From positions 78,600 to 142,599 of the forward strand of contig NZ_JAIZ01000806.1 of the NCBI RefSeq assembly GCF_000710465.2: a DNA stretch of 64,000 nucleotides, given 5' to 3'. Source of the stretch: Kitasatospora sp. MBT63 (GTDB taxonomy: Bacteria; Actinomycetota; Actinomycetes; Streptomycetales; Streptomycetaceae). Below are positions 14,197 through 64,000 of the stretch, in pieces; within the stretch, counting starts at the first letter, position 1; every line of letters begins with the position of its first letter. A program made the translations under genes and the position numbers. A model generated the notes under the pieces. That model was not told the DNA's origin and did not search any database. It saw nothing but the letters and a program-made list of their open reading frames with translations.

Positions 14197-15609
14197 TCAT
14201 GCCTGGGCGAGACCGCGCTCGACCTCGGCGTCGGTGACCACACGGGAGTGGTGGTCCAGGTCCATGCGGGCGATCCGTGCCAGGTGCGCGACCACCCGTT
14301 CCTCCAGCAGCTCACCGGCCAACGTGCTGGCCTCGAACGCGCCGACTGCCTCCTCCAGCGACTGCGGCAGCAGCGGCACCTCGCGCTGCTCGTAGGCGTC
14401 GCCGCTGACGGCCTCCGGGGGCTTGAGGCCGGCCTCGACGCCGTGCCGGATTCCGGCGAACACCGCCGCCAGGGCGAGCAGCGGGTTGGCGTCCGCACCC
14501 GGCAGGCGCACCTCCAGCCGCAGGCTGCGGCCGTGGCCGACCACCCGCACCGCGCACGTCCGGTTGTCCCGGCCCCACGTGAGGCGGGCCGGCGCGAAGG
14601 AGTGGTCGCTGAGCCGCTTGTAGCTGTTCACGTACGGCGCCCAGAGCGGGGCGACCTCGGGCAGTACGGCCAGCAGTCCGGCCACCGCCTGCCCGCCCCG
14701 CTCCGACAGCTCGGTCCCGTCTTGCGGGTCGGCGGCCAGCATCGTCCGGTCGTCGAAGTCGGCCAGCGAGACGTGCAGGTGCAGGCCGCTGCCGACCCCG
14801 GTGGACGGGGCCGCCATGAACGAGGCGGTCATACCGGCCTCGTCCGCGACCGTCCTGGCGGCGTGCTTGAACAGCACGTGCTGCTCGCACGCCGCCACCG
14901 CCTCCCCGTACGGGAAGGTCAGCTCGATCTGACCAGGGGCTCCTTCGCCCTTGACGGCCTCGACCGGCAGGCCGGCGGTGGCCAGGACCTGGCGGAGCCT
15001 GCGGCCGAACTCCCGCACCGTGGGCGGCTGGTCGAGGCCGTAGTCGCGGTTGTCCGTGACGGCGGGACGAAGGCCCCGCCAGTCGGCCGCCGCAGCGTCC
15101 CGGGCGGTGCCTTCGTAGAGTACGAACTCCGTCTCGATCCCCACCGCTGGCACCACACCGAGCTCGGCGAGCCGGTGCAGCTGCTCGGCCAGCACCGTGC
15201 CCGGCGCCAGCGGGTGCGGCCACCCGCCTGCGATCGGCTGGGCAAGCACCAGCGCAGTGCCCGGCAGCCACGGCAACAGCCGGGCCCGCTGCAGGTCGGG
15301 CAGCAGAGCGACATCACCGAACCCGGACTGCCAGGAGAACGGACCAGTCCGGGCCGGGGTCATGCCCAGGTCGGTGCCGAGCACGTACCCGCACATCTCC
15401 GGGGACAGCGCCCCCGACCGCAGCCGCTCCACCAGCTGGGCAGCGTCGTACTCCTTGCCCTTGAGCCGGCCCTGCGCGTCGACCGTCGCCAGCAGCACCG
15501 TGTCGAGGCCGAAGGCGGACACCAGCTGCTCCAGCGGCCCGGTTGGCGAGAGTGCCGCCGTCTGGGTCTTGGCCGCGCGGGAACGGGCGGCCCGCATCGT
15601 CGCCTTCAT
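14197..15609 (-). CDS. Glutamine-synthetase-like ligase (GlnA4/PuuA-like)
   Basis: 470-residue GS-fold ATP-dependent ligase that joins glutamate to ammonia or an amine. The catalytic signatures appear in order: GIETEFVLY (about 155-163), GQIELTFP (about 222), GSGLHLHVSL (about 272), NRTCAVRV (about 347) and LEVRLPGADANP (about 363). It lacks the adenylylation-site context of GlnA1 and resembles the gamma-glutamyl-polyamine/amine ligase branch. The ATG at 15609 overlaps the stop of the permease gene (ATGA), so the permease probably imports the amine or amino-acid substrate. The substrate itself cannot be read from the sequence. Confidence 0.9.
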   Translation of the reverse strand: MKATMRAARSRAAKTQTAALSPTGPLEQLVSAFGLDTVLLATVDAQGRLKGKEYDAAQLVERLRSGALSPEMCGYVLGTDLGMTPARTGPFSWQSGFGDVALLPDLQRARLLPWLPGTALVLAQPIAGGWPHPLAPGTVLAEQLHRLAELGVVPAVGIETEFVLYEGTARDAAAADWRGLRPAVTDNRDYGLDQPPTVREFGRRLRQVLATAGLPVEAVKGEGAPGQIELTFPYGEAVAACEQHVLFKHAARTVADEAGMTASFMAAPSTGVGSGLHLHVSLADFDDRTMLAADPQDGTELSERGGQAVAGLLAVLPEVAPLWAPYVNSYKRLSDHSFAPARLTWGRDNRTCAVRVVGHGRSLRLEVRLPGADANPLLALAAVFAGIRHGVEAGLKPPEAVSGDAYEQREVPLLPQSLEEAVGAFEASTLAGELLEERVVAHLARIARMDLDHHSRVVTDAEVERGLAQA

Positions 15610-50386: not shown

Positions 50387-51754
50387 GTGCCCAGCATCCC
50401 CCTGCCCGACCGCGCCGCCGAGGCGCACAGCACGGAGAGGACGACGAGCGCCTCCGGCCTGCTCGTTCCCGATTCTTCCCAGTGGATATCGACCACCACC
50501 GGCCGCATCGCGCCGGACACTTACACCTGGCTGCAGGCCGTCCACTGGGCGTCCGACACCCAGGCGCACGCCCCGGCCCGCGCCCACGGCCCGCGGTTCG
50601 GCCCCACCACGCTCCGGATCGCCCAGCTCCTCGCTCAGCTCACCCCGTGCAGACCCGGCGTCGGCTACCTCGTGCGGATGCTGAAGGTCTCCGAGCGCAC
50701 CGTGCAGTACCACCTGTCGATCCTCCGGGAGTCCGGCCTGCTCAGCTACACCACCAAGGGCAGCCGCGTGCGTCAGGTGGGTGGCCGGGCCAGCGAGTTC
50801 GTCCGCACCATCCCGCAGCGGTTCGACGAGGCCATCGGCCTGCGGACCGCCGAGTCCGAGACCTTCATCCGCAAGGTCGTCGGCGTCGCCTCGGACGAAG
50901 GCCGCCACGCCCTCGCGCAGCTGGGCAAGAAGGCCCGCCGAACGGTTCGCCGAACCAAGCGGCGCAGCCCCGGAAAGGCCGGCAACCGCTCCTCGTCAAC
51001 CTCCCCTCGTTGCACCCCAATGGGGGTCGGTGCTGTCACGTCTTCTCCTGCAGCACCTACCAACAATCCCTCTGAGAACGACATCGCGAACGGGAACGAC
51101 CAGCAGCACCAGGGGGAACGGAAGGGCCGTCGGCGGCTGAACCAGGTTGGTCGCCGCCACCAGCTCGGACTCGAACTCGTCCGCCAGGTCTCCTGGCTCA
51201 GCGGCAGCCCGGTGCCGCGGGTCGCCTGGGCCGTGCGCCACCTCGCCGACGCCGGGTGGACCGCCCACCAGGTCATCGCCGTACTCGCTCAGCGGACCCC
51301 GGCTACCCGGATCCACCGCCCGGTCGGATTCCTCACCGCCCGCCTGGCCGGAGCCGAGCTGCTGTACGACACCGAGGCCAAGCGCGAGGCGATCGTCGCC
51401 TGGTGGCGCGACTCGCCGCAGGCGGCTCGGGATCGGCACGCCGAGTGGGCCGGCACCTGGCAGGCGCCGCGCAGCTCCGCGGTCCAGAGCCTCTTCCGGA
51501 ACGCCTGGGCGAGAGCACGGGAGACCGGCCGCCCGTCGCTGGCCGTCCTCGACGAGCAGCCCACCAGCGAGGAACACCGCGAAGCCCGCACCACGGCGTG
51601 GCGCCAGTACCTCAGCGGCAGACCCGCCCTGGTCACCTCCGCCCTGGCCATCGCCGGCCGGGAGCAGGCGGAGCAGATCTACGGGCCCGACCTCGTCTCG
51701 CGTGTCCTCCGCCTCCGCGCCACCTCCAGCCACCTCCGAACAGGAGCAGCACGA
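50387..51754 (+). CDS. HTH protein of plasmid/integrative-element type
   Basis: About 456 residues ending just at the overlap with the next gene. The N-terminal region (TTLRIAQLLAQLTPCRPGVG, LVRMLKVSERTVQYHLSILR) is a clear winged-helix DNA-binding domain. The C-terminal half (LGLELVRQVSWLSGSPVPRV, AWAVRHLADAGWTAHQVIAV) is helical and typical of actinomycete element proteins that may act in replication or its control. GTG 50387 follows GAGGA. The TGA (51755-51757) overlaps the next start as ATGA. Confidence 0.75.
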
Positions 51755-52422
51755 TGAACGACCACCAGCCCGCTACCGGGATCGACCTCGCCCGGCTCGC
51801 CCTCCGGCGAGCCCGCGCCGACGCCGCCAAGCGCCCCGACGGCATGGTGAAGACCCGGACCGCCGGGTCGACGGCCGGGCCCCGGCGCGGCCGGGTCGAC
51901 CCGGTGGGCCTCGGCGCGGCCCTGTCCGACCTCATGGTCCAGCACGCCTGGCAGGAGCCGCTGGCCGGCGGCGGGCTGCTCGACCTGTGGCCGGCCGCCG
52001 TCGGCGAACTCGCCGACCACGTCACCGCAGTGAGCTTCGACCACCAGACGGGCCGCCTTGACGTCCGCGCCGAGTCCCCGGCGTACGCGACGCACGTCCG
52101 CACCCTCGCCCCTGCGCTCGTCGCAACGCTCAACCAGGCCAACGGAGAAACGATCCTGCGCAGCATCCGAGTGCTGGGCACCCACCGGGCCCACGCCGCA
52201 GCGGAAACCCGACCGACCGCCCGCAACGCAGCCCCCGCGCCGGAACCCAAGATCAAGACCCGGGAGGACGCCTCGCCCGGCTACCTGCGGGCCCTGGCCC
52301 AGCTCCAGGCCAGCCGCCCGAGCGCACCCGCGGACTCCAGGACGAGCCCGGCGGTCGACCGGCGGATCAGAACGCTGGCCAGAGAGATGGCGCCCCGTCT
52401 CTCCGGCACCCGCCCGCGCTAG
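51754..52422 (+). CDS. DUF721/DciA-like protein
   Basis: 222 residues. The central part (GLLDLWPAAVGELADHVTAV, LDVRAESPAYATHVRTLAPA, LVATLNQANGETILRSIRVL) matches the DUF721 domain of DciA, the ancestral loader or operator of the replicative helicase DnaB. The N-terminus LARLALRRARADAAKRP also resembles actinobacterial DciA. A DciA paralogue on a mobile element suggests a role in recruiting host helicase for element replication. Start ATG 51754 overlaps the HTH gene stop. Confidence 0.8.
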   Translation: MNDHQPATGIDLARLALRRARADAAKRPDGMVKTRTAGSTAGPRRGRVDPVGLGAALSDLMVQHAWQEPLAGGGLLDLWPAAVGELADHVTAVSFDHQTGRLDVRAESPAYATHVRTLAPALVATLNQANGETILRSIRVLGTHRAHAAAETRPTARNAAPAPEPKIKTREDASPGYLRALAQLQASRPSAPADSRTSPAVDRRIRTLAREMAPRLSGTRPR

Positions 52423-52515
52423 CCACCGACAGGCCGGCGCGACCGCCCCCGGTCGCGCCGACCCGCCCCCGAACCTCCGCGCCCCGCCCGCGGACCCACC
52501 CGGAGACCCAACCCC

Positions 52516-53046
52516 GTGTCCACCATCACCTCGATCGCCACCCGCCGCGACCACACCTGGGTGCAGCGCGCCGCCTGCGCCGGCACCAACACCCCTGACC
52601 GCTTTTACCCCCTGCCCGACCAGGCCGAGGAGACCCGGGCCGCCAAGGCCCTGTGCGGCAACTGCCCCGTCAGCGACGAGTGCCTCACCGAAGCACTGGA
52701 GACCAACGACCGCTACGGGATCCGCGGCGGCCTCGTCGAGAGCGAGCGGATCGTGCTGCACCGCCTCAGCACCGTCGGCCGCTGGGAGGAGGACCGCGTC
52801 GTCGCAGCTCTCAACGGCCGCCCGGTCCACCTCTCCCGGCAGGAGAAGCACAGCGTCTGCGTGGTCGCCGCCATCCTCGACCTCGACCTGCGGATCTGGG
52901 CCCCAGTGCTCGGCATCGGCCGCAAGCGCGCCTTGACCCGAGTACGCGAGGCCCGCGCCCAGTTCGACGCACAGCCTTTCCTGCTCCGGCGCGAGCAGCG
53001 CATCGCCGGCGCGTTCAGCCCGGAGGCTACGGCGGTGGCGGCGTGA
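52516..53046 (+). CDS. WhiB-family iron-sulphur regulator
   Basis: 176 residues. The four cluster Cys residues are Cys21, Cys47, Cys50 and Cys56 (ALCGNCPVSDEC). The YGIRGGL turn that follows is the WhiB signature. The C-terminal ~100 residues form an extension beyond the usual WhiB length. GTG 52516 is used. The stop overlaps the DUF2637 gene start (GTGA). Element-borne WhiB proteins are common in actinomycete plasmids and probably control transfer or maintenance genes. Confidence 0.93.
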   Translation: MSTITSIATRRDHTWVQRAACAGTNTPDRFYPLPDQAEETRAAKALCGNCPVSDECLTEALETNDRYGIRGGLVESERIVLHRLSTVGRWEEDRVVAALNGRPVHLSRQEKHSVCVVAAILDLDLRIWAPVLGIGRKRALTRVREARAQFDAQPFLLRREQRIAGAFSPEATAVAA

Positions 53047-54302
53047 GTGAGACCAGCGAGCCGAGTCGGATGTCCCGATGGGACAAGGCCGCGATCGGCG
53101 TGATGGGCGCGGTCGGCGGAACCCTGAGCTACGACGCACTGCAGCAGATGGCCGTCGCCATGCACGTCCGACCCGAACTGAGCTACCTCTTCCCGGTCGC
53201 GATCGACGGGTTCATCGCGTACGGCGTGCGGGCGCTGGTTGTGCTGAAGGAAGCGCCGCTGCGGGCCCGCGCCTACACCTGGTCGGTGTTCGGCGGAGCC
53301 ACAGCCACCAGCGTCTGGGCCAACTGGACCCACGCCGTCCGTCTGAACGAGACGACGACCGGCCAGGGATTCCACCTGAACAACACCGCGGTCGGCGCGC
53401 TCAGCACCATCGCCCCGCTGGTCCTCGGCGGCGCCACCCACCTGTACATCGTCATGTCGCGGCATACCTCCTCCGCCGCGCAGGCCAACGAGACGGCTGA
53501 CGCGGAGACCGAGAAGAACGGGGCAGCTCGAACCGACCAGAGTGACCCTGACGAGCCGACCACGGTCCGGTCCTGGTGGCGAAACCGCTTCCGCCGTACC
53601 CGCCCCGAAGTTCAGGAACTCGATCACGCTCCGGCCATCGCCGAACAACCGCACCTTCGGCTGATCAGCAGTCCGTCCGGTCCGGTACCCGCGTCCGGTC
53701 CGTCCGGTCCGGTCGCCGGTCCGGTGCTGGGGTCGGGTTCGTCCGGTCCGGTCGCCGGTCCGGTGCTGGGGTCGGGTCCGTCCGGTCCGGTCGCCGGTCC
53801 GGTGCTGGGGTCGGGTCCGTCCGGTCCGGTACCCGCGTCCGGTCCGTCCGGTCCGTCCGGTCCGTCCGGTCCGTCCGGTCCGGCACCCGGTCCGGCACCC
53901 GGTCCGGTACCCGTGCCCGGCTCGTCCGGTCCGGTCGCCGGTCCGGTGCTGGGGTCGGGTCCGTCCGGTCCGGTGCTGCTGTCTGGTCCGGTGCCCGTGT
54001 CGGGCTCGTCCGGTCCGCTACCGGCAACCGGACGGGCGCGGGTGAAGCTCGAGGTGCTGGTCCCTGTCGCCAGGCAGGCCGCCGCGCGGGCCGGCCGCAC
54101 CAACCGGGAGGTCGTGGCCGCCGGGCTCCGCGAGCAGGGCTACTCCATCAGCAACGAGCGGATGGGCAAGTTGCTGCAGATGATCGAGGACACCGACGCC
54201 AAGCCTCCGCCGACTCCCCCAACCGGCACCACACGCCCATCGCACTCCGTCGCACAGCGACCCCACCCCACGCCCAACTCGCTTCCGAGGAAACGCCCAT
54301 GA
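53043..54302 (+). CDS. DUF2637 membrane protein with Pro/Gly/Ser repeats
   Basis: 419 residues. The N-terminal ~140 residues have four hydrophobic segments (AAIGVMGAVGGTLSYDALQQ, SYLFPVAIDGFIAYGVRALV, WSVFGGATATSVWANWTHAV, STIAPLVLGGATHLYIVM), matching DUF2637 proteins of Streptomyces integrative elements, which are linked to plasmid spread. A repetitive region from about residue 210 (SGPVAGPVLGSG) follows, then an HTH-like C-terminus (RTNREVVAAGLREQGYSISN). Membrane, linker and DNA-binding-like parts are thus combined. GTG 53043 overlaps the WhiB stop. Confidence 0.85.
   Translation: MSETSEPSRMSRWDKAAIGVMGAVGGTLSYDALQQMAVAMHVRPELSYLFPVAIDGFIAYGVRALVVLKEAPLRARAYTWSVFGGATATSVWANWTHAVRLNETTTGQGFHLNNTAVGALSTIAPLVLGGATHLYIVMSRHTSSAAQANETADAETEKNGAARTDQSDPDEPTTVRSWWRNRFRRTRPEVQELDHAPAIAEQPHLRLISSPSGPVPASGPSGPVAGPVLGSGSSGPVAGPVLGSGPSGPVAGPVLGSGPSGPVPASGPSGPSGPSGPSGPAPGPAPGPVPVPGSSGPVAGPVLGSGPSGPVLLSGPVPVSGSSGPLPATGRARVKLEVLVPVARQAAARAGRTNREVVAAGLREQGYSISNERMGKLLQMIEDTDAKPPPTPPTGTTRPSHSVAQRPHPTPNSLPRKRP
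53674..54022 (+). repeat. Tandem repeats encoding SGPVAGPVLGSGP-like units
   Basis: Three near-identical 39-base units (13 residues each), then variants and a run of SGP triplets, with a fourth copy of the long unit later. They are in frame within the DUF2637 gene and are collagen-like in composition. Copy number is likely to vary between strains. Confidence 0.9.
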
Positions 54303-54523
54303 CCCGCACCACCACGCCGAAGACCACGCCCGATGCCCTGATGAGCCTCCTCCTGGAGCAGCGTCTCGTCCGCACCGCCACCGCCGCCAGCGACGGAAGC
54401 TGGCTCGTCCGCCGGACCACCCACGGGCCCAAGGTCGTCCTGGAGGGCCCCGTCGAGGTCATGGACTACGGGCTCGGAGTGCTTCTCGATGCCAAGCTCG
54501 ACCTGGAGGACATCGCCGCCTGA
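54299..54523 (+). CDS. Small uncharacterised protein of the element
   Basis: 74 residues. A short beta-alpha pattern (DGSWLVRRTTHGPKVVLEGP, VEVMDYGLGVLLDAKLDLED) is visible; no family recognised. ATG 54299 overlaps the DUF2637 stop (ATGA), so it is translationally coupled. It ends just before the hairpin-rich region. Confidence 0.7.
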   Translation: MTRTTTPKTTPDALMSLLLEQRLVRTATAASDGSWLVRRTTHGPKVVLEGPVEVMDYGLGVLLDAKLDLEDIAA

Positions 54524-54589
54524 TCTGGCCAAAGTGCTTGCCCAGTAGCGCAGTTCGGTGCCTGACCGCTTGGCCCCTACGGCGCAGCA

Positions 54590-54722
54590 AGCTATCGCGA
54601 AAGCCGGGCTTACGCCCGGTTTTCGCACTTGCCCTCGCCCCCAGGAGGGGCGAGGGAGACCGAGGACGAGTCGAGCGCCCCCGCTCGACTCGTCCTCGGT
54701 CTCCCGGCACCAGGGGGTGCCG
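54590..54722. other. Hairpin-rich origin-of-transfer candidate
   Basis: Three inverted repeats lie in 130 bases just before mobC and the relaxase. First: 54597-54626, 13-base arms with one mismatch around TTAC, directly followed by CACTTGCCCTCGCCCC. Second: a perfect 24-base inverted repeat, 54654-54677 and 54682-54705, around CCCC. Third: GGCACC/GGTGCC at 54706-54721. A repeat next to a presumptive nic region beside relaxase genes is the usual oriT layout. Inference only. Confidence 0.55.
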
Positions 54723-54751
54723 GGAAGGAGAAGGAGGAGGAGACGATCGAA

Positions 54752-55210
54752 CTGCTGAACGATGCCACCGAGCCGACCGCTGAGCCGACCACCGACGCGC
54801 CGCCCGCGCGCCGCCCGCGCCGTCGCCACCGCGACCCCCAGAGCCGCACGTGCAAGCTGACCGTGCGTCTGAACATTGAAGAGAAAACCGAGATCGACAC
54901 CGCCGCCGCTGCCCGCGCCGTCACCGTCGGTCGCTTCCTCGCGACCAGCGCCATCAGCGCCGCCCGCGGAACACCCGCTGACCGCGACCCCCAAGACCGC
55001 CTCGACCGCGCCGTCGACGAGCTTGCCGCCTCCCGCGCGCAGCTCGCCCGCGTCGGCAACAACCTCAACCAGATGGTCTTCGGCCTCAACGCCGCCGGCT
55101 ACGTCCAGCCGACAGAGCTGGCCCCGACCCTCGGAGCCGTCCGCGCCGCGGTCGCTGCGGTAGACGACGCCGCCGCCCAGCTGGTCGCCGGTGGACCAAT
55201 TGGTCCCTGA
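54752..55210 (+). CDS. mobC: MobC-like relaxosome protein
   Basis: About 152 residues. RTCKLTVRLNIEEKTEIDTA is a ribbon-helix-helix-like DNA-binding start, and LARVGNNLNQMVFGLN is the conserved MobC motif. MobC helps open oriT for the relaxase. AAGGAGGAGGAG (54731-54742) is a strong ribosome-binding site followed by CTG 54752 in frame. A TTG at 54629 is unlikely because it would translate through the large palindrome. The end overlaps the relaxase gene by 20 bases. Confidence 0.8.
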   Translation: MLNDATEPTAEPTTDAPPARRPRRRHRDPQSRTCKLTVRLNIEEKTEIDTAAAARAVTVGRFLATSAISAARGTPADRDPQDRLDRAVDELAASRAQLARVGNNLNQMVFGLNAAGYVQPTELAPTLGAVRAAVAAVDDAAAQLVAGGPIGP

Positions 55211-56924
55211 TATCAGCCGCGGCAGCAAGACGTACGGCCTGTTGGCCTACCTCTACGGCCCCGGCAAGCACGACGAACACTTCGACCCACACCTGGTGGC
55301 GAGCTGGGACGGCTTCGCGCCCGACCCCGGCCGCGACCCCGCAGCGAACCTGAAGCAGCTGGAGCAGGTCCTGGACCTGCGGGTCAACCAGCTCGGACCG
55401 AGGCGACCGAAGAAGCACGTCTGGCACTGCCCCGTCAGCGCCGACCCCGACGACCGGCTGCTCACCGACGAGGAGTGGGCCGAGGTTGCCCGCCGCGTCG
55501 TCGCCGCCGCCGGCATCGCCGAGCCCGGCGACCCGGACGGATGCCGCTGGATCGCGGTCCGCCACGACCCGCGCCACATCCACATCATGGCCACCGTCGT
55601 ACGCGGCGACGGGCGCCAAGCCCGCCTCAACGGTGACGCCCAGCGCGCCCAGGACGAGTGCCGGCAGATCGAGAAGGACCTCGGCCTCAAGCAGCTCAAT
55701 CCCGGTGACAAGACCGCCGCCAAGCGCCCGACCAGCGCGGAAACCCACAAAGCCGAGCGGCTCGGACGACCGGAACCCGTCCGCCTCCAGCTGCGGGACC
55801 AGGTGCGCCGCGCCGTCGCGGGCTGCGCGAGCGAAGCCGAGTTCTTCGACCGCCTCGCCGCCGCTGGCCTGCTGGTGCAGCGGCGCATCGGACCCTCCGG
55901 AGACACCCTTGGGTACTCGGTCGCTGACCCGGACGACCGCAACGGCAAGGGCGACCCGGTCTACTTCCCCGGCTCGAAGCTGGCCCCCGACCTCTCCCTC
56001 CCGCGCATCCGCAAGCGGCTGAGCGGCGGCGTCCGGGCCGCCGGGGCGAGCACCGCCGAGCCGGGCGACCCGGCCACCGGCACGGCCCGTGTGCCCGGCT
56101 CCAAGGCCGCCCGCGCCCGCCGGGACGCCGCAGCCGCGGTCGACGACGCCACCCGGACCATAGAGGAAGGGAGCGAAGAGGACGCAGCAGGGCAGCTGGT
56201 CGGCGCGATCGAGATCATTGACGTGCTGGCTGTCCGCGCTCCGGCCGACACCAGGGCCCAACTTCTATCTGCAGCGCGGGCGTTCGAGCGGGCATCACGC
56301 TCCCATGTGCGCGCCGAGCGGGCCGACAACCGGGCGGTGCGAGCAGCTGCCCGCGAGATGCTCAGCAGCGGCTACGCCGGGAACAGGTCCGAGGACGGCG
56401 GTGTGACCGCGATGCTGCTGTCGGCGCTGATCCTGCTGGCCATCGCCTCAGCCCGGTGGCACTCCGCGCGCTCGCACGCCCAGCAGGCCGCCGCCGCCAG
56501 CGCCGCTGCCGAGCAGCTGCGGGCGGCGTACGCCACGGTGGCAGCCCGCCCGATGGCGGCCATGGCCGCGCGAGGTCGCTCCCTTCCGCAGTCGGTCCGC
56601 GAGCGCCAGTACGCGGTGATCCGGGCGCAGTTGCCCGAAGCCGTGGCCGGCGAGCACGGCGGGAGCGACTGGGACGCGCTCGCGGCCACCCTCGCGGAGG
56701 CGGAGGCAGCTGGCCACGACCCGGCCGCGCTCCTGGGGAAGGCCAGGAACCGTCGCGAACTCGACACCGCCGACTCTGTCGCCGCGGTCATGGTATGGCG
56801 GGTGCGTCGGATCGCTGAGCTGTCGGCCCTGCCCTCAGTTGAGCCCTCGAGGTTCGGGCACCGCACAAGGAACCAAGGGGCGGTCACCCCGACGCCTTCA
56901 CCACGCCGCCGGCCATCACGCTGA
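55191..56924 (+). CDS. Relaxase / mobilisation nuclease
   Basis: 577 residues. The N-terminal region SKTYGLLAYLYGPGKHDEHF is typical of actinomycete relaxases. The metal-binding motif is IAVRHDPRHIHIMATVV (HxHI), and a family-typical EFFDRLAAAGLLVQRRI follows. The C-terminal ~250 residues are helical, with one hydrophobic segment (AMLLSALILLAIASARWHSA). It nicks oriT and leads the strand into the recipient. GTG 55191 lies inside mobC. No TraB/FtsK-like translocase or integrase lies in the window, so transfer may rely on genes outside it. Confidence 0.88.
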   Translation: MDQLVPDISRGSKTYGLLAYLYGPGKHDEHFDPHLVASWDGFAPDPGRDPAANLKQLEQVLDLRVNQLGPRRPKKHVWHCPVSADPDDRLLTDEEWAEVARRVVAAAGIAEPGDPDGCRWIAVRHDPRHIHIMATVVRGDGRQARLNGDAQRAQDECRQIEKDLGLKQLNPGDKTAAKRPTSAETHKAERLGRPEPVRLQLRDQVRRAVAGCASEAEFFDRLAAAGLLVQRRIGPSGDTLGYSVADPDDRNGKGDPVYFPGSKLAPDLSLPRIRKRLSGGVRAAGASTAEPGDPATGTARVPGSKAARARRDAAAAVDDATRTIEEGSEEDAAGQLVGAIEIIDVLAVRAPADTRAQLLSAARAFERASRSHVRAERADNRAVRAAAREMLSSGYAGNRSEDGGVTAMLLSALILLAIASARWHSARSHAQQAAAASAAAEQLRAAYATVAARPMAAMAARGRSLPQSVRERQYAVIRAQLPEAVAGEHGGSDWDALAATLAEAEAAGHDPAALLGKARNRRELDTADSVAAVMVWRVRRIAELSALPSVEPSRFGHRTRNQGAVTPTPSPRRRPSR

Positions 56925-57122
56925 CCGAGCGGAGATACGGCTGGCATCGGCCCGCTCCCGTGGTCGCGCTCTGAGAAAGCAGCACCGAGGACGCCACTCG
57001 CGGGTGGCGTCTCCGGTGTTCCCCGATGTGCCAGAGCGCCGTAGTCGTCACCGAGTGGGCTGACCGACCTGGGAGACCTGTTGCACGCGAAGGTGCTCGC
57101 CCAAGCCGCCGGCATCGCCTGA
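56925..57122. other. Intergenic, possible gene remnant
   Basis: About 200 bases. Near its end a frame reads TDLGDLLHAKVLAQAAGIA before a stop, which looks like the tail of a lost coding sequence, but no start or family is seen. Confidence 0.3.
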
Positions 57123-57386
57123 TCACAGACTCCGCAGCGCCCTCTCACACTCGCGGCAGCGCTTCTCCTCCAGCTCCGCCGGGTACCACGGCTCTCCCGG
57201 CCGGGAAGGGCTGTAGTGAGAGTGCTCCATGGCCTCGGCGTTCCGGCCGCACAGTGTCCGCGGCAGCGGGTCCTCCGGAACATCGGGGTCCGATCCTGCG
57301 GCGTGAACCGCGAGGACGACGGGCTCGACACCGTCCGGCCCAATCTCCGCGTCGGGTTCAAGCTCGAAGAGAACGATCAGCGCCAC
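57123..57386 (-). CDS. Small uncharacterised protein
   Basis: 87 residues from GTG 57386, no family recognised. It carries Cys pairs (RTLCGRNAEAMEHSH, EKRCRECERAL), suggestive of a small zinc-binding fold. It is divergent from the plus-strand gene at 57479 with under 100 bases between them. The frame is open further upstream, so the start is not certain. Confidence 0.5.
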   Translation of the reverse strand: MALIVLFELEPDAEIGPDGVEPVVLAVHAAGSDPDVPEDPLPRTLCGRNAEAMEHSHYSPSRPGEPWYPAELEEKRCRECERALRSL

Positions 57387-57478
57387 GCACCAACCCTGCG
57401 GCACCCAGCCACCCGCCGCATCCCGGGGATCGTCCGATTGCGCAGCCAGCGGGAGACTGAACGAAGGAGGTACGTGCG

Positions 57479-58177
57479 ATGACCAACGAAGAGGAGAGCG
57501 AGTCACAGGAGCCGCTCATCATCTCTGCCGAGGACGAGATGACGGTCAACACCTCGATGCTCGCCATCAAGAAGACCGCCGCGGGGGATGTCACGGGCCT
57601 GCGGACGGGTCGGAGCGTCGACGGTCGGGAGGCCGGAGCCGACGTGACCGATGACGGTCGGGTCGTCGCCCACACCGCCGGCCCGACACCCCAGAAGGAT
57701 GACCGGGAGCGGAGATGCGGGCAGATTCTGGTGAACCACCTGAACGCTCAGGGCTCCCGGTGGGGCGTGCCCCAGTTGGCCCCCGGCGGAAGGCACGAGC
57801 AGGGCGTGGACTGCATCGCCGTCGACACTGAGGACGACACGATCAAGCTGCTGATCCAGGTCACGATGGTCGACCGCACCGACACTTGGAAGCAGCTCAG
57901 TCAGACCAAGGCCGCCGCCCACCCGGAGACAACAGTCGATGAGATCGTCGAGTCGGTGAGGACAGCGATCGAGGACAAGCGGTACCACCCAAAGAAGGGC
58001 ATCCACCTCGCGCTCGACGCCACCGATAGCATCAGCTCTGCCCTGCCGCCGGTCACGGACGCCTTCCGGACCGCGTACGGCGAGTGGACGGCCGGCCTCG
58101 GATACGAAGGTGTCTACCTGGTCGGCCCGGAGAACCTAGTCGCCCGCCTGGACAGGCCCGGCGCTGGACGCGGCTGA
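57479..58177 (+). CDS. Uncharacterised protein next to the CRISPR array
   Basis: 232 residues, no family recognised. ATG 57479 follows GAAGGAGG. The acidic N-terminus (EEESESQEPLIISAEDEM) precedes a folded part in which GVDCIAVDTEDDTIKLLIQV followed by TMVDRTDTWKQL recalls the D...(E/Q)xK core of restriction-like nucleases, with Gln-Val-Thr where ExK would be. That similarity is by eye and weak. It ends 61 bases before the first CRISPR repeat. Confidence 0.6.
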   Translation: MTNEEESESQEPLIISAEDEMTVNTSMLAIKKTAAGDVTGLRTGRSVDGREAGADVTDDGRVVAHTAGPTPQKDDRERRCGQILVNHLNAQGSRWGVPQLAPGGRHEQGVDCIAVDTEDDTIKLLIQVTMVDRTDTWKQLSQTKAAAHPETTVDEIVESVRTAIEDKRYHPKKGIHLALDATDSISSALPPVTDAFRTAYGEWTAGLGYEGVYLVGPENLVARLDRPGAGRG

Positions 58178-58238
58178 CGTCGACCGCATCCGTCCGGGCC
58201 CACCCGACCATCAGACCGGTCCAGACCAAAGACATCGC

Positions 58239-60088
58239 GTTGCTACCCCTCCCAGGGGCGATGGGCCCGGCTCCGACGGTCGCACCCGGACCGGCACTGA
58301 CTAGTTCCTACCCCTCCGAGGGGCGATGAGACCAAGGCGAAGGCGTTCTGGGAGGCGCACAGTTGGTAGTTGCTACCCCTCCGAGGGGCGATTAGGCGCC
58401 TACGTCATCAGCCCGGTCTACATCGCCAGCCCGTTGTTACCCCTCCAGAGGGGCGATGAGACGTGGAGTGAGCGAGCCGGTACGGTCGCTGCCTACCGAT
58501 TGCTACCCCTCCCAGGGACACGACGAGCCCCTCGGGGCTGGCGACGTGGTTGCAGGCCGACATGATGTTGCTACGCCTCCCAGGGGGATGAGCCCGTCCC
58601 GGAGTTTCAGGAGAGCGCGGACCGTTTCTAGTTGCTACCCCTTCGAAGGGGCAATGAGCCTTGGCCGTGGCGAAACGTGAGATGTGCACCAACGAGTTGT
58701 TACCCCTTCGTAGGCGATGAGACCCGGCAGTGTTCGGTGTCCTTCGGGAAACCTGGTTTGGGTTGCTACCCCTCCGAGGGTCGATGAGACGAGTGGACCG
58801 CGTACGGGATGGCCGGCCACCACGGGTTGCTACCCCTCCGAGGGGTGATGAGATGAGCGAGGGCTGCATCCAGAGCCTGTACTGGGACATGTTGTTACCC
58901 CTCCGAGGGGCAATGAGACCGGCCGATCGACCGCAACACGAAGGAGGGGTTCGCGTTGTTACCCCTCCGAGGGCGATGATCCCCGAGGCGGGCAGGCACA
59001 TCGAGGGGCGCGTCACCACGTTGCTACCCCTCCAAGGGGCGATGAATTCGCGGACGTCGGCCCGATCTTCACGGCGCTGACCGGGTTGCTACTCCTCCGA
59101 GGGGCGATCAGACGTTCGCCGCTGCCGGCACCCTGACCGTCATCACGAAGTTGCTACCCCTCCGCGGGGCGGTGAGACCAGCGACCGCGCAAAGCTCGCG
59201 CACAACGCCACGTTGTTGCTACGCCTCCCAGGGACGATGAGCTGGAGGACCCGATGACGCCCGGAACGCCCGTTCAGTAGTTGATACCCCTCCCAGGGGC
59301 GATGAGACCAGCGCGCAGTCGGACATGCTGATCCGCAGCCCGAGGTTGCCATCCCTCCGAGGGGCGATGAGAGCACGGTCCGGATCGGCTCCCACGACTC
59401 CGAGGCCCGGTTGCCACCCCTCCCAGGGGCGATGAGAAGGTCTCCGTGATCGGCACCGCCTGCTGGGACCTCGCGTTGCTACCCCTCTGAGGGGCAATGA
59501 GACCTGCCGCAGGATCAACGCCTGGCTGATCGCGAAGATCTTGTTTCCCCTCCGAGGGGCGATGAGACTACGTGGACCCGGAGGCGGACGAGGCGCCATG
59601 GTAGTTGCTACCCCTCGAGGGGTGATAAGCCACAGGGTGTGCCAACGCCCGGCATGAGATGGCTGATCACGTTGCTACTCCTCCGACGGGTGATGAGCCT
59701 TCAACAAGCGGATACGTAGTTGGCGGTCTGAGCCTGTTGCTACCCCTCCGAGGGGCGATGAGGCGAATCCGGCCCACTGGTCGCCGGTGGACTACGCGAC
59801 GTTGCTACCCCTCCCAGGTGCGATGAGACGAAGATCTACGTCAACCCGATCGTCGCCCTCATCTGGTTGCTATCCCTCCGAGGGGCGATGAGACGGCCTG
59901 GCTCTCGGTGCTCACCATGACCGGATTCCCGTTGCTACCCCTCCGAGGGGCGATGGAATGTGGATCTACCTGCTGCTGGAGGTCTACACCCACCGGTTGT
60001 TACCCCTCCCAGGGTGATGAGACCGCGCGCTTCCCATTCTCGTGGGAGGCGTTCATGAACTTGCTACCCCTCCCAGGGGTGATGAGAC
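58239..60088 (+). CRISPR. CRISPR array: 29 repeats, 28 spacers, highly diverged repeats
   Basis: Repeats of about 29 bases recur every 64-68 bases (mostly 65), leaving ~36-base spacers. The consensus begins GTTGCTACC, has a CCCCTC-C-GAGGGG stem and ends CGATGAGAC. Starts by eye: 58239, 58304, 58369, 58433, 58499, 58567, 58631, 58696, 58762, 58826, 58891, 58955, 59020, 59085, 59150, 59215, 59280, 59345, 59410, 59475, 59540, 59604, 59671, 59736, 59801, 59866, 59931, 59996, 60060. No repeat equals the consensus and all differ from one another, but most can still fold the stem. Spacers are all different. The array lies upstream of cas6 on the same strand. Confidence 0.97.
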
Positions 60089-60380
60089 CCGATGGTAACG
60101 CCGCAGGTCGGTATCCGTGTTGGGCTGGTGGTTGCGCCAGGTTCTGCAGTAGGGGCCTGGTGATGTTGTCGATCACGGAGTTGGGGGCTGCGGTGCGCAG
60201 TTCGGCTTCGACCTGGGTGGTCGCGGCCAAGGGTACGGCGGCGAGTGCCGCCGGGGCCCCGGGGTGACTGTGCGCAATCTTGTGACGGCTGTCAGTGGCG
60301 CCGTTTAGGGTCCTGGAATGTGCGGCTGGTGCTTCGTCAGCCCACTGGGTTGTCATGCCATTTGAGCGTTGGGATGCGGG
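60089..60380. other. Region between CRISPR array and cas6
   Basis: 292 bases that may hold the leader or the cas promoter. The last repeat (60060-60088) is followed by unrelated sequence. A minus-strand frame here (VEAELRTAAPNSVIDNITRP) has protein-like composition but no recognised family. No convincing AT-rich leader is visible at either end of the array. Confidence 0.4.
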
Positions 60381-61109
60381 ATGAGGGTGCGGCTTGCCGT
60401 GGTGACGGCGGCGGCGGAGGTGCCGTGGGGCAGCGTGCTTGCCCCTGGTCGCGGGTTGGTCTACGACGTACTGGGGCGGGTGGCTCCCGAGCTTGGGCGC
60501 CGGTTGCACGAGAACGGTGAGGGGCCCCACGGGATGGCGCCGTTCGGGCATGGAGCGCCGGTGTTCTCGTCCGCTCGTCGGCGGCCGGGGCGGTACGCGG
60601 CGGGCGGTCGGGGGGAGGTCGAGTTCGGCAGCCCGGTGCCGGCCATCGTGGAGGCGCTAGCGGCCGGGTTCGCGGAGCGCGAGCTGTTGGACTGGGGCGG
60701 AGTCGCCCTGCGCCTGACGGGCGTTGATGTAGTGGAGCCGCCGGAGTTCGCGGACGGTCGGGCGGTGCTGCGGACCGCCACTCCGGTGGTGATGAAGGGC
60801 TCCGGATGCAGTCCGGAAGGGGTGCGTGGGCCTCGCCAGGCATGGGTGCTGCCGGCGGAGCTGGAGTGGGCGGGCTACTTCCAGGGCAACCTGCGGCGCA
60901 AGGCCGAGACCCTGGGTCTGGACGCCAAGGTCAGCCTGGAGTCGGTGTCCTGGGTGGGGCCGAAGAGGTCGTTCGCGGTGGGGCAGGGCGCCAAGCCGGG
61001 GGCCGCCGTCGAGGTGGAGCTGTCGGGAGCGCCGGAGACGCTACGGGCTCTGTGGAGCTGGGGCCTGGGGCAGGCAAACTCGGCCGGGTTCGGCTGGGTG
61101 ACGGCATGA
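60381..61109 (+). CDS. cas6: CRISPR endoribonuclease Cas6
   Basis: 242 residues with the ferredoxin-like RAMP fold. It begins MRVRLAVVTAAAEVPWG. The C-terminal glycine-rich loop GLGQANSAGFGWVTA is the family signature. It cleaves precursor crRNA at the base of the repeat stem to leave an 8-base 5' handle. ATG 60381 was chosen at the conserved strand start; the ribosome-binding site is weak. The stop overlaps the next gene (ATGA). A His in the N-terminal half (such as in LHENGEGPHG) may serve in catalysis. Confidence 0.92.
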   Translation: MRVRLAVVTAAAEVPWGSVLAPGRGLVYDVLGRVAPELGRRLHENGEGPHGMAPFGHGAPVFSSARRRPGRYAAGGRGEVEFGSPVPAIVEALAAGFAERELLDWGGVALRLTGVDVVEPPEFADGRAVLRTATPVVMKGSGCSPEGVRGPRQAWVLPAELEWAGYFQGNLRRKAETLGLDAKVSLESVSWVGPKRSFAVGQGAKPGAAVEVELSGAPETLRALWSWGLGQANSAGFGWVTA

Positions 61110-62539
61110 CCGCGCCCGCTTGCGGTGACCTCGGCCAGGGCCGACTGGTGCTGACCGCACATCCCTTGCAGCGGGTGGGGGCGTTCGCGCTCGCGGCCCT
61201 GGCTGGCGACGGCTCTCCGGAGGAGACCACCGAGGCCGATTTCGAGGTGGCGCTGTCGCAGATGGCTCGGGACGCGCTGCGTGCAGCGCTCGGACGCGAC
61301 AGTAAAGCTCTGGATGGTTTCTGGTTGAAGGTCAGCTACTCCTTCTTCCCCAACACCGCGATGAACCACCCCAGCAACAGCAAGCGCACCGATGCCGAGA
61401 TCGCGCAGCGGGTGGAGCAGTGGCGGACTCTGCCCCCGCCGTCCGGCTGGCCGCCCACGGTCTGCGCACTGTGCTCACGGCAGGCCGTCGGGTACTACGG
61501 GAAGAGCGACGTGCCGCTCGCCGAGAGCCCCTCGTACCGCAACACCACCCCGCGAGGCCACGACGGGATGGCCTTGTGCTGGCCGTGCCTGAACAGCTTC
61601 TACGCGCTGCCCTACGGGGTGCGCCTCACGGGCGGGCCGTCCATCGCCCTGCACAGCTGGGACGACAACTTCCTTCAGCACGCCGTGGCCGAGCAGGTCG
61701 ACCACAACCGAATGCTCGCCGCCACCGGCGACGCCAGCAGGCGGCAGACCGGAGCGCAGGAGGTCGTCGCGCTGACCGCGCTGCGCACCCACCGCCAGCC
61801 GATGGGCGCCGCCGTCGAGCTGCTGGTATTCAACAACAACAACCGCGGCCAGGAGCTGGAGATCCACTCTCTGGAGCAGCCGCTGGCCGAGTGGCTGCGC
61901 CGCACCCAGCGGCTGGCTGACAGGCGTGCGGGTTTCGCGGAGCTGGTGCGCGCCCACGCCAGTTCGTCGACTCCCGGGCTCGTGACCTTGGCCCGCAACG
62001 TCTTCCGCGCGCCCAGCCGGATCGTGTCCGCCGGCCACGGCCGGCTGCTCGGCGGCCTGACCCGAACCGGGCGGGACCGGTCCCGGGCCGAATCTCTGGC
62101 TGTGCTGCTCAACTCCTTCGCTACCGAGGTAATGCTGATGACCGAGAAAGACCTGGCCGAGATCGCCAGGACCGCACGCAACGTGGCCGTGCTGCTGAAC
62201 ACCGCCACCACCGGCGGCCAGCTGCGGAGCTTCCGCACCCTGCTGCGCGACCCGTCGAAGCTGCGCGCGTGGCTGACCTCCCAAGGCGTGCAGTGGACCG
62301 TCAAGCCGCCCACGGAAGCAGCGGGGCCGTTGGTGACCGAGCGGGGCTTCGAGCTGCTGTTCAGCCCGGTCTCGCAGAACCCGGCCTGGTTTCACCGGGA
62401 CATGCTCCTGGTCGGTGTGCTGCAGGAACTGAACTCGCTCGGCTGGAAGCCCGAGCAGCCGGAGGAGGAGGGCGAGGAGGATCTCGATCCCCGCGACCTC
62501 GAAGCGATGACGTTCGACACGGAGGATGAGCAGCAGTGA
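61106..62539 (+). CDS. cas8: Cascade large subunit Cas8 (Cst1-like, CxxC-CxxC)
   Basis: 477 residues. Two Cys pairs, CALC (Cys120, Cys123) and CWPC (Cys158, Cys161), form the zinc-finger-like motif of the Cst1 type, described as CXXC_CXXC. The N-terminus LVLTAHPLQRVGAFALAALA fits the family. The large subunit recognises the PAM and supports Cas3 recruitment in type I systems. The position between cas6 and cas7 is standard for the Tneap-type I-B operon. The stop overlaps cas7 (GTGA). Confidence 0.88.
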   Translation: MTAPACGDLGQGRLVLTAHPLQRVGAFALAALAGDGSPEETTEADFEVALSQMARDALRAALGRDSKALDGFWLKVSYSFFPNTAMNHPSNSKRTDAEIAQRVEQWRTLPPPSGWPPTVCALCSRQAVGYYGKSDVPLAESPSYRNTTPRGHDGMALCWPCLNSFYALPYGVRLTGGPSIALHSWDDNFLQHAVAEQVDHNRMLAATGDASRRQTGAQEVVALTALRTHRQPMGAAVELLVFNNNNRGQELEIHSLEQPLAEWLRRTQRLADRRAGFAELVRAHASSSTPGLVTLARNVFRAPSRIVSAGHGRLLGGLTRTGRDRSRAESLAVLLNSFATEVMLMTEKDLAEIARTARNVAVLLNTATTGGQLRSFRTLLRDPSKLRAWLTSQGVQWTVKPPTEAAGPLVTERGFELLFSPVSQNPAWFHRDMLLVGVLQELNSLGWKPEQPEEEGEEDLDPRDLEAMTFDTEDEQQ

Positions 62540-63561
62540 CGTACCTGGTTGGCAAGATCGTTCTGGATGTGGTGGCGGGAGCCCCGAACAACGGACTGGC
62601 GGAGGACAACAACGGCAAGGTCAAGCAGTTGCGGGTGGGCCGCGACGCCTACCCGTACGTGTCGGCGCAGGCGTTCCGCCGCTGGCTGCGCGACAGCCTG
62701 CCCGTGCAGGAGTCCCGTTCGCCGGTGACCCGCAGCGGTTCCGGCGCGAAGCAGCAGGCGTACACCGCGGGCCGCCCCGATCTGCACCTGGACGACGACC
62801 TGTTCGGGTACATGGTGGCGGTGAAGAAGGAGAGCTACGGTCGCGAGACGGTGCTGGCGACCGGCACGTTCGTCTCCGTCGTCCCCCAGCGCCCGACCAG
62901 CGACTTCGGCACCATGAGCCGGGACTTCCCCGCCGGCGAGCACCCGGTGATCCACTCCCACGAGCTCTACAGCGCCGTCCTGGCCGGGGACGTGCTCCTG
63001 GACCTCCCCCGTGTCGGTGTCTTCGAGACGGACGGCACCGGCCTGCGCACCGCGCTGAGCCCGGCCTCCGCCGATGAGGCCGTCAAGGCGGGTGCCGAGA
63101 AGACGACGCTGCGCGGCACCGGCGCGGTCAAGCTGCCGCTGGCGGAGCGCCGGCGGCGGGTGGACACCGTGCTGCGCACGCTCGCCGCGGTGCGCGGCGG
63201 CGCGAAGCAGGCCCTCCACTACGGTGACCGCGCCCCGGCGCTGGTACTGCTCGCCTCGGTCAAGGGCGGGGTGAACCCGTTCACCCGGATCGTCGGCGCC
63301 GACGACGGCCGGCCTGTCTTCCAGGCCGATGTGCTGCGCGAGGAGATCGCGGCGTGGAGCGACGAGCTGGACGGCCCGGTGCTGGTCGGCTGGTCGCCCG
63401 GGTTCCTCGGTGACCAGCGCGAGCGGGCGGTCAAGGACCTCTCCGATCTCGTCGACAGCGGCGCGGTGGTCTTCGGGCACCCCCGGGTGATCCTGAACGG
63501 CCTGGCCGACCGGATTGGTGCGGGCGAGCACGACGCCTGGTTCGAGGACCCCGCGGCATGA
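62536..63561 (+). CDS. cas7: Cascade backbone protein Cas7 (Cst2/DevR type)
   Basis: 341 residues of the RAMP superfamily. YLVGKIVLDVVAGAPNNGLA and DAYPYVSAQAFRRWLRDSL match the Cst2/DevR N-terminus, and GTFVSVVPQRPTSDFGTM the following region. Several copies coat the crRNA spacer. GTG 62536 overlaps the cas8 stop, and the end overlaps cas5 (ATGA). Confidence 0.92.
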   Translation: MTYLVGKIVLDVVAGAPNNGLAEDNNGKVKQLRVGRDAYPYVSAQAFRRWLRDSLPVQESRSPVTRSGSGAKQQAYTAGRPDLHLDDDLFGYMVAVKKESYGRETVLATGTFVSVVPQRPTSDFGTMSRDFPAGEHPVIHSHELYSAVLAGDVLLDLPRVGVFETDGTGLRTALSPASADEAVKAGAEKTTLRGTGAVKLPLAERRRRVDTVLRTLAAVRGGAKQALHYGDRAPALVLLASVKGGVNPFTRIVGADDGRPVFQADVLREEIAAWSDELDGPVLVGWSPGFLGDQRERAVKDLSDLVDSGAVVFGHPRVILNGLADRIGAGEHDAWFEDPAA

Positions 63562-64000
63562 CGGCTGCCTCGGTCACGGCGCTACGGGTGACGCTGATCG
63601 CGCCGGTGGTCTCCTTCCGCAACCACCTGTACGCCGGTGTGCAGGTCACCCATCCCTGCCCGCCCCCGTCCACCGTCGCGGGCATGCTCGCGGCGGCGGC
63701 CGGCGGCTGGGACACGGTCGACATCGGCCTGCGGTTCGCCATGGCCTTCCACGCCGCCGGCAGCGGCATCGACCTGGAGACCTACCACCCGCTGGACGCG
63801 ACGGGGAAGGCCACGACCCCGGTGCCGCGCACCCGCGAGTTCCTCGCCGACGCCACCGTGCACGTCTGGCTGCTGGACGACACCGAGACGTGGCGCAGCC
63901 GGCTCCGGCGACCCGTGTGGCCGCTGCGGCTCGGCCGAAGCCAAGACCTCGTCGGTATCCGCCTCGACCACACCGTCCTCACCTTGGTCGAGGGCGAGCA
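63558..64000 (+). CDS. cas5: Cascade protein Cas5, 3' end cut by window edge
   Basis: The first ~147 residues are visible. LIAPVVSFRNHLYAGVQVTH then PPPSTVAGMLAAAAGGW is the Cas5 N-terminal RAMP strand and glycine-rich helix, and PVWPLRLGRSQDLV is the conserved later motif. It binds the 5' handle of crRNA. ATG 63558 overlaps the cas7 stop. cas3, cas4, cas1 and cas2, if present, would lie beyond 64000. Confidence 0.93.
   Translation, partial: MTAASVTALRVTLIAPVVSFRNHLYAGVQVTHPCPPPSTVAGMLAAAAGGWDTVDIGLRFAMAFHAAGSGIDLETYHPLDATGKATTPVPRTREFLADATVHVWLLDDTETWRSRLRRPVWPLRLGRSQDLVGIRLDHTVLTLVEGE

Follow-up and report, generated by a model that had tools for sequence, protein, structure and literature searches.

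Diverged repeats throughout a type I-B CRISPR array of Kitasatospora sp. MBT63, a probable ageing memory beside a conserved effector

The question raised by this locus is how a CRISPR array can come to hold 29 repeats of which no two are alike. The array lies in the window (the whole stretch of 64,000 nucleotides that was analysed), on a 188-kb contig of the draft genome of the soil actinobacterium Kitasatospora sp. MBT63 (9.85 Mb, 845 contigs). Repeats were called by fuzzy matching over 58239-60088, with GTTGCTACCCCTCCGAGGGGCGATGAGAC as the consensus. None of the 29 was equal to this consensus, all 29 were mutually distinct, and 5 were within 1 substitution of it. Divergence averaged 2.38 substitutions per 29 nt (8.2%), with a further 13 indel characters over the array. 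The spacing of the repeats was mostly 65, and the 28 spacers, 35–39 nt in length, did not resemble one another. Repeat calling thus bore out an earlier note on this DNA, which had described 29 repeats, all different and none equal to the consensus, with a period of mostly 65 and spacers that are all distinct. Searching of region 57000-61000 against Rfam gave no matches.

The features of the region are listed in Table 1. Beyond position 64000, cas5 is followed by cas3 and then by a second array, which is short, oppositely oriented and likewise made up of diverged repeats. A Cst2/DevR Cas7, Cas5b, Cas8b, Cas3 and Cas6b are thus encoded in one operon, as in the Cst2/Cas8b branch of type I-B, and the adjacent array carries spacers of about 36 nt from mobile elements with a PAM, also as in this type. 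Given the adjoining cas genes, and spacers that correspond to genes of plasmids and phages next to a PAM, a chance origin is excluded and this is a real type I-B CRISPR array. The old end of the array is adjoined by a block resembling an integrative/conjugative element (50387-56924), and a 232-aa protein with no family match (57479-58177) stops some 60 nt short of the first, oldest, repeat. In L024, a TIR/SEFIR-like protein was observed a few kb past the CRISPR locus (14460-15053, minus strand; PADLOC bSEFIR, ThsB-like matches).

Table 1. Features of the CRISPR locus and of its surroundings, in positions of the window
Feature	Position	Strand	Remarks
WhiB regulator	52516-53046		within element-like block
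DUF2637 protein	53088-54302		long Ser-Gly-Pro-rich repeats; within element-like block
MobA/VirD2-like relaxase	55191-56924		within element-like block
CRISPR array	58239..60088	minus	29 diverged repeats and 28 distinct spacers; leader end at 60088
Spacer 7	58661..58695	minus	diverged form common to S. rubellomurinus spacer 3; toward leader-distal old end in both arrays
Spacer 17	59309..59344	minus	Kitasatospora plasmid gene, 33/36, PAM TCG; also gene in own genome, 32/36, PAM TCG
Spacer 24	59765..59800	minus	conjugative DNA-transfer gene, Kitasatospora plasmid, 33/36, PAM TCC
Spacer 28 (leader-proximal)	60024..60059	minus	Streptomyces phage major capsid genes, 33/36, PAM TCG; mismatches all synonymous
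Leader / intergenic, array to cas6	60089..60368		79% identical to S. rubellomurinus overall; near-invariant blocks beside cas6
cas6 (Cas6b)	60369..61109	+	glycine-rich loop GLGQANSAGFG present
cas8b (large subunit)	61106..62539	+	PADLOC Cas8b, E 5e-11
cas7 (Cst2/DevR, type I-B)	62536..63561	+	TIGR02585, E 6e-48
cas5	63558..64000	+	cut by window end; Cas5b of type I-B operon

Eight spacers of this array matched plasmid or phage genes, mostly with 31–33 of 35–36 bases identical (one with 32/39); the targets included a conjugative DNA-transfer gene, a MobF relaxase, a helicase, a phage major capsid and a tape-measure gene, among others. Seven spacers of the corresponding array in Streptomyces rubellomurinus ATCC 31215 likewise matched plasmid or phage genes. 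TC was present at positions -3 and -2 of the protospacer (5′-TCN PAM) for 14 of these 15 spacers (13 by a strict count), the exceptions being GCC for spacer 26 here and GAG for spacer 8 of S. rubellomurinus. This PAM matches that reported for the type I-B system of Saccharopolyspora spinosa, for which the reported functional PAMs include TCG and TCC (PMC12231136). On these matches, the spacers are genuine memory. The position of the PAM, together with the repeats of relatives that end in ATTGAAAC on the other strand, indicates the minus strand as the crRNA strand and places the leader toward cas6 and the old end of the array at the low coordinates. In that orientation the repeat is GTCTCATCGCCCCTCGGAGGGGTAGCAAC, and the 3′ handle part is GTAGCAAC. 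A promoter scan of the leader region found nothing.

Of 56 mismatches between spacers and targets, 34 lay at the third position of a target codon (p = 2.5e-5), and a good part of the mismatch is therefore drift of the target. At first and second codon positions, 22 of about 336 were mismatched, giving an upper bound of about 6.5% for spacer decay, which is biased downward by the choice of matches for their similarity and is of the same order as the repeat divergence. No self-target with a PAM was found inside the 64-kb window at 24 or more matches. The resident near-target of spacer 17 is located on another contig of this genome (C75:8883-8921, in L175), with mismatches at crRNA positions 6, 9, 13 and 24; either four mismatches are enough for this site to be tolerated, or the system interferes only weakly.

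The adaptation module cas4-cas1-cas2, which is typical of type I-B yet not defining for the subtype, was absent between cas3 and the second array. In a search of the genome, neither Cas1 nor Cas2 was found, and the same models scored in control genomes with these genes. Thus, an integrase was found neither in cis nor in trans.

Repeat uniformity was compared across related loci. Arrays were called for some 70 loci belonging to this branch of type I-B. In the cas1-bearing relatives (88 arrays at 50 loci, a few of which are the same species present in two collections), 79.6% of the 1,623 repeats were exact, with 0.46 mismatches per 28 nt. Three loci of the Kitasatospora branch, namely the present one, S. 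rubellomurinus (L057) and a third species (L058), have a full effector without cas1, and their repeats were 0%, 5% and 0% exact, respectively, with 2.6–3.4 mismatches. The lowest array among the cas1-bearing loci (L067, 11% exact) is probably due to a miscalled consensus. The earlier note had held that relatives with identical repeats at the same site would speak against the heterogeneity; such relatives do exist, but only where cas1-cas2 is still present, whereas the two closest ones, also without cas1-cas2 in the locus, are equally heterogeneous. These three loci are related and may represent one loss event. Actinokineospora auranticolor (L083) has a complete I-B effector and no Cas1 found genome-wide, and 84% of its 38 repeats are exact; absence of cas1 is therefore not sufficient for heterogeneity, and a recent loss of adaptation, which is possible, must be assumed for this species. 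A wider search of the class for independent losses yielded 20 further loci, 19 with cas1 and one in a region ending before the cas1 site, and the arrays found among them were all largely uniform, which leaves only one or two independent losses. Conversely, in another locus (L072, of G160), effector genes are deleted between cas6 and cas1, and the arrays are still fairly uniform. Cas6 homologues of this branch also occur without nearby I-B effector genes, some of them beside small arrays (L079, L084, L092, L095, L104, L105, L106 and L109).

The rate of repeat change could be compared with that of spacers in S. rubellomurinus, in whose array of 58 repeats a block of three units has been duplicated (spacers 17-19 and 38-40). 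Since the duplication, the repeats have diverged at 11 of 85 positions (12.9%) and the spacers at 14 of 106 (13.2%; Fisher p = 1). Both copies carry the same unusual repeat variants, indicating that some of the heterogeneity arose before the duplication. The present array's spacer 7 is the same as spacer 3 of S. rubellomurinus with a few changes, the repeat variant CAATGAGCC is also shared, and a spacer of the second array weakly resembles spacer 1 of S. rubellomurinus. Divergence of shared spacers was comparable to that at four-fold sites of the cas genes (0.14-0.20). In this small sample from a close relative, repeats appear to evolve no faster than spacers, both at roughly the neutral rate.

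Very probably, then, the locus is a static, ageing memory: adaptation was lost, acquisition stopped, the repeats drifted by ordinary mutation, and the effector was kept by selection. Each integration of a spacer copies the leader-proximal repeat. Stretches of repeat variants in the arrays of Escherichia and Salmonella support such copying (PMC2886076). In a working system, every new spacer would bring a fresh copy of the leader-proximal repeat and the repeats would stay uniform; once acquisition stopped, there would be no such renewal. Repeats and spacers would then drift independently through point mutation, small indels and occasional duplication or deletion of blocks, at about the neutral rate. 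With the interference genes intact under purifying selection and the hairpin partly constrained, a fixed and ageing memory would still be transcribed, processed and used. After drift of this kind, the array should be heterogeneous from end to end, repeats and spacers should have diverged equally, and the leader end should be no fresher than the rest; each of these was seen, the equal divergence in S. rubellomurinus. That this is a very old array which stopped acquiring spacers had been one suggestion of the earlier note, and it is strongly supported by the lack of cas1 and cas2 in the genome, the uniform arrays of cas1-bearing relatives, and the clock-like divergence of repeats and spacers.

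Drift of spacers and repeats at about the synonymous rate would also be seen if the whole locus were dead and everything in it decayed neutrally, and the near-match of spacer 17 with a good PAM in its own genome would suit such a locus. The cas genes argue against this. Between this genome and S. rubellomurinus, the five effector genes are intact, with no stop codons, a dS of 0.18-0.25 and a dN/dS of 0.14-0.25, about equal to that of cas1-bearing pairs of relatives at similar dS. The effector thus remains under purifying selection that was not relaxed by loss of the adaptation genes. Catalytic motifs are visible, by our own reading, in the translations of Cas3 and Cas6, and both the stem positions of the repeat and the block near cas6 are conserved. 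A dead locus is accordingly quite unlikely.

As to the stem, changes are not spread evenly, as the earlier note had it. Changes concentrate at positions 5, 15 and 28 of the 29-nt repeat, and the stem shows 0.048 changes per site versus 0.100 at the other positions (Fisher p = 0.011), a halving of the rate that holds in all three cas1-less arrays (Fisher p of 0.011, 0.0002 and 0.019). Retention of the stem exceeded a random null by only a small margin (P = 0.04-0.07). The hairpin of the repeat is under partial constraint. Compensatory double changes that keep a pair were found in none of the 29 repeats here, in which 10 pairs are broken, and in 1 of the 58 repeats of S. rubellomurinus; selection for such changes was rejected. 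The variant CCCCTTCGAAGGGG at 58631, previously taken for a compensatory change, does not replace both members of a consensus pair; it has an altered, longer loop that adds an inner T-A step beside an intact stem. The unrelaxed dN/dS of the effector and the halved rate at stem positions suggest that the system is probably still read; most likely it still transcribes, processes and uses its fixed memory, crRNA production and interference being inferred.

Repeat diversification might itself be selected, as preventing recombinational loss of spacers from an array that cannot be refilled. Diverged repeats are expected to recombine less with one another, and long arrays (29 and 58 repeats) have persisted without adaptation. 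However, the repeats of the duplicated block have changed no faster than the spacers, so that selection of this kind, proposed in the earlier note as a block to recombination, is not needed. The lower rate at stem sites is the opposite of what diversifying selection would give, and uniform repeats are kept in the cas1-bearing relatives. We regard this explanation as very unlikely.

Equally little credit can be given to the proposal of ongoing acquisition, in which altered repeats would be written by an integrase or polymerase prone to error, acting in cis or in trans. It finds some support in the spacers: the arrays of this genome and S. rubellomurinus, both without cas1 in the locus, share only one or two old spacers, and the newer ones wholly differ. 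Against it, the genome search revealed no protein of the Cas1 or Cas2 families, so that error-prone acquisition, also raised in the earlier note, is not needed; the cas1 system located elsewhere in the genome of S. rubellomurinus uses a different repeat (GTTGCAAGCCCTCCAGGGCTGAT...); and the duplicated units diverged after integration. Furthermore, there is no decay gradient along the present array (rho 0.03), leader-end repeats being as mutated as distal ones, and in S. rubellomurinus, where a weak gradient occurs (rho -0.32, p = 0.013), the newest repeats are altered too. In both species cas3 is directly followed by the same second-array remnant, which indicates that loss of the adaptation genes predates their split. 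With so early a loss, a static memory can be squared with the few shared spacers only by invoking sizeable deletions particular to each lineage, or else a degree of acquisition in trans. Such deletions can explain the pattern; for S. rubellomurinus, acquisition in trans is conceivable but unlikely.

A sequencing or assembly artefact, which a draft of 845 contigs might bring to mind, can practically be dismissed, as the locus lies on a long contig among intact genes and two independently sequenced relatives have the same pattern with partly shared variants.

A further observation counts against the static, ageing memory as set out above. At repeat position 15, G and C are interleaved along the array without runs, a pattern which simple mutation from one ancestral repeat does not predict. 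Two repeat templates may once have coexisted, or there may have been exchange between arrays.

If the static memory is accepted, the locus would provide a natural experiment on whether repeats are uniform through renewal by acquisition rather than through selection on each copy, and, as a natural clock, on how long immune memory and an effector outlive the loss of adaptation. Whole-array heterogeneity could be used, from sequence alone, as a clock and as a marker of systems in which spacer acquisition has ceased; the diverged repeats would be a natural scan of the tolerance of Cas6 and Cascade. It is also conceivable, though on balance doubtful, that the locus is a heritable, non-adaptive defence, in which an effector working from a fixed memory has long been kept by selection, and in which divergence of the repeats, once under way, protects the long array from repeat-repeat deletion.

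In the open-access literature, adaptation-less I-B and I-E systems were found, as were mostly uniform arrays, and no array in which all repeats differ beside an intact effector, which is weak evidence of novelty. Adaptation-less I-E systems of the Streptomycetaceae (reviewed in PMC12231136) share with this locus the family and an effector without cas1-cas2. They differ in subtype and adjoin tnsB/tnsC or STAND NTPases, none of which was seen beside the present operon. The slow I-E arrays of Escherichia and Salmonella are also old with little turnover; unlike here, 75–97% of their non-terminal repeats equal the consensus (PMC2886076). The I-B system of a Haloferax lucentense provirus, which lacks cas1, cas2 and cas4, has likewise kept a selected effector without adaptation genes (Cas3 omega 0.136), but its repeats hardly differ from one another and agree with those of a complete resident system, which was read as adaptation in trans (PMC12596717), whereas here no cas1 or cas2 was found and all repeats are diverged. 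Closest are the actinobacterial I-B systems with an adaptation module, such as those of Streptomyces sp. NBC_01766 (plasmid NZ_CP109119.1), Thermobifida fusca, Nonomuraea and Microtetraspora, which share with this locus the gene order cas6-cas8b-cas7-cas5-cas3, related proteins, the repeat family GTTGCNACCCCTCNNAGGGGCGATGAGGAC and arrays on both sides. In related actinobacterial I-B loci, cas1, accompanied by cas4 and cas2 wherever these are annotated, separates cas3 from the second array, and the repeats are near-uniform; both features are missing here. The present locus is a known system with one module lost, and it stands out by the complete decay of its repeats beside an unrelaxed effector.
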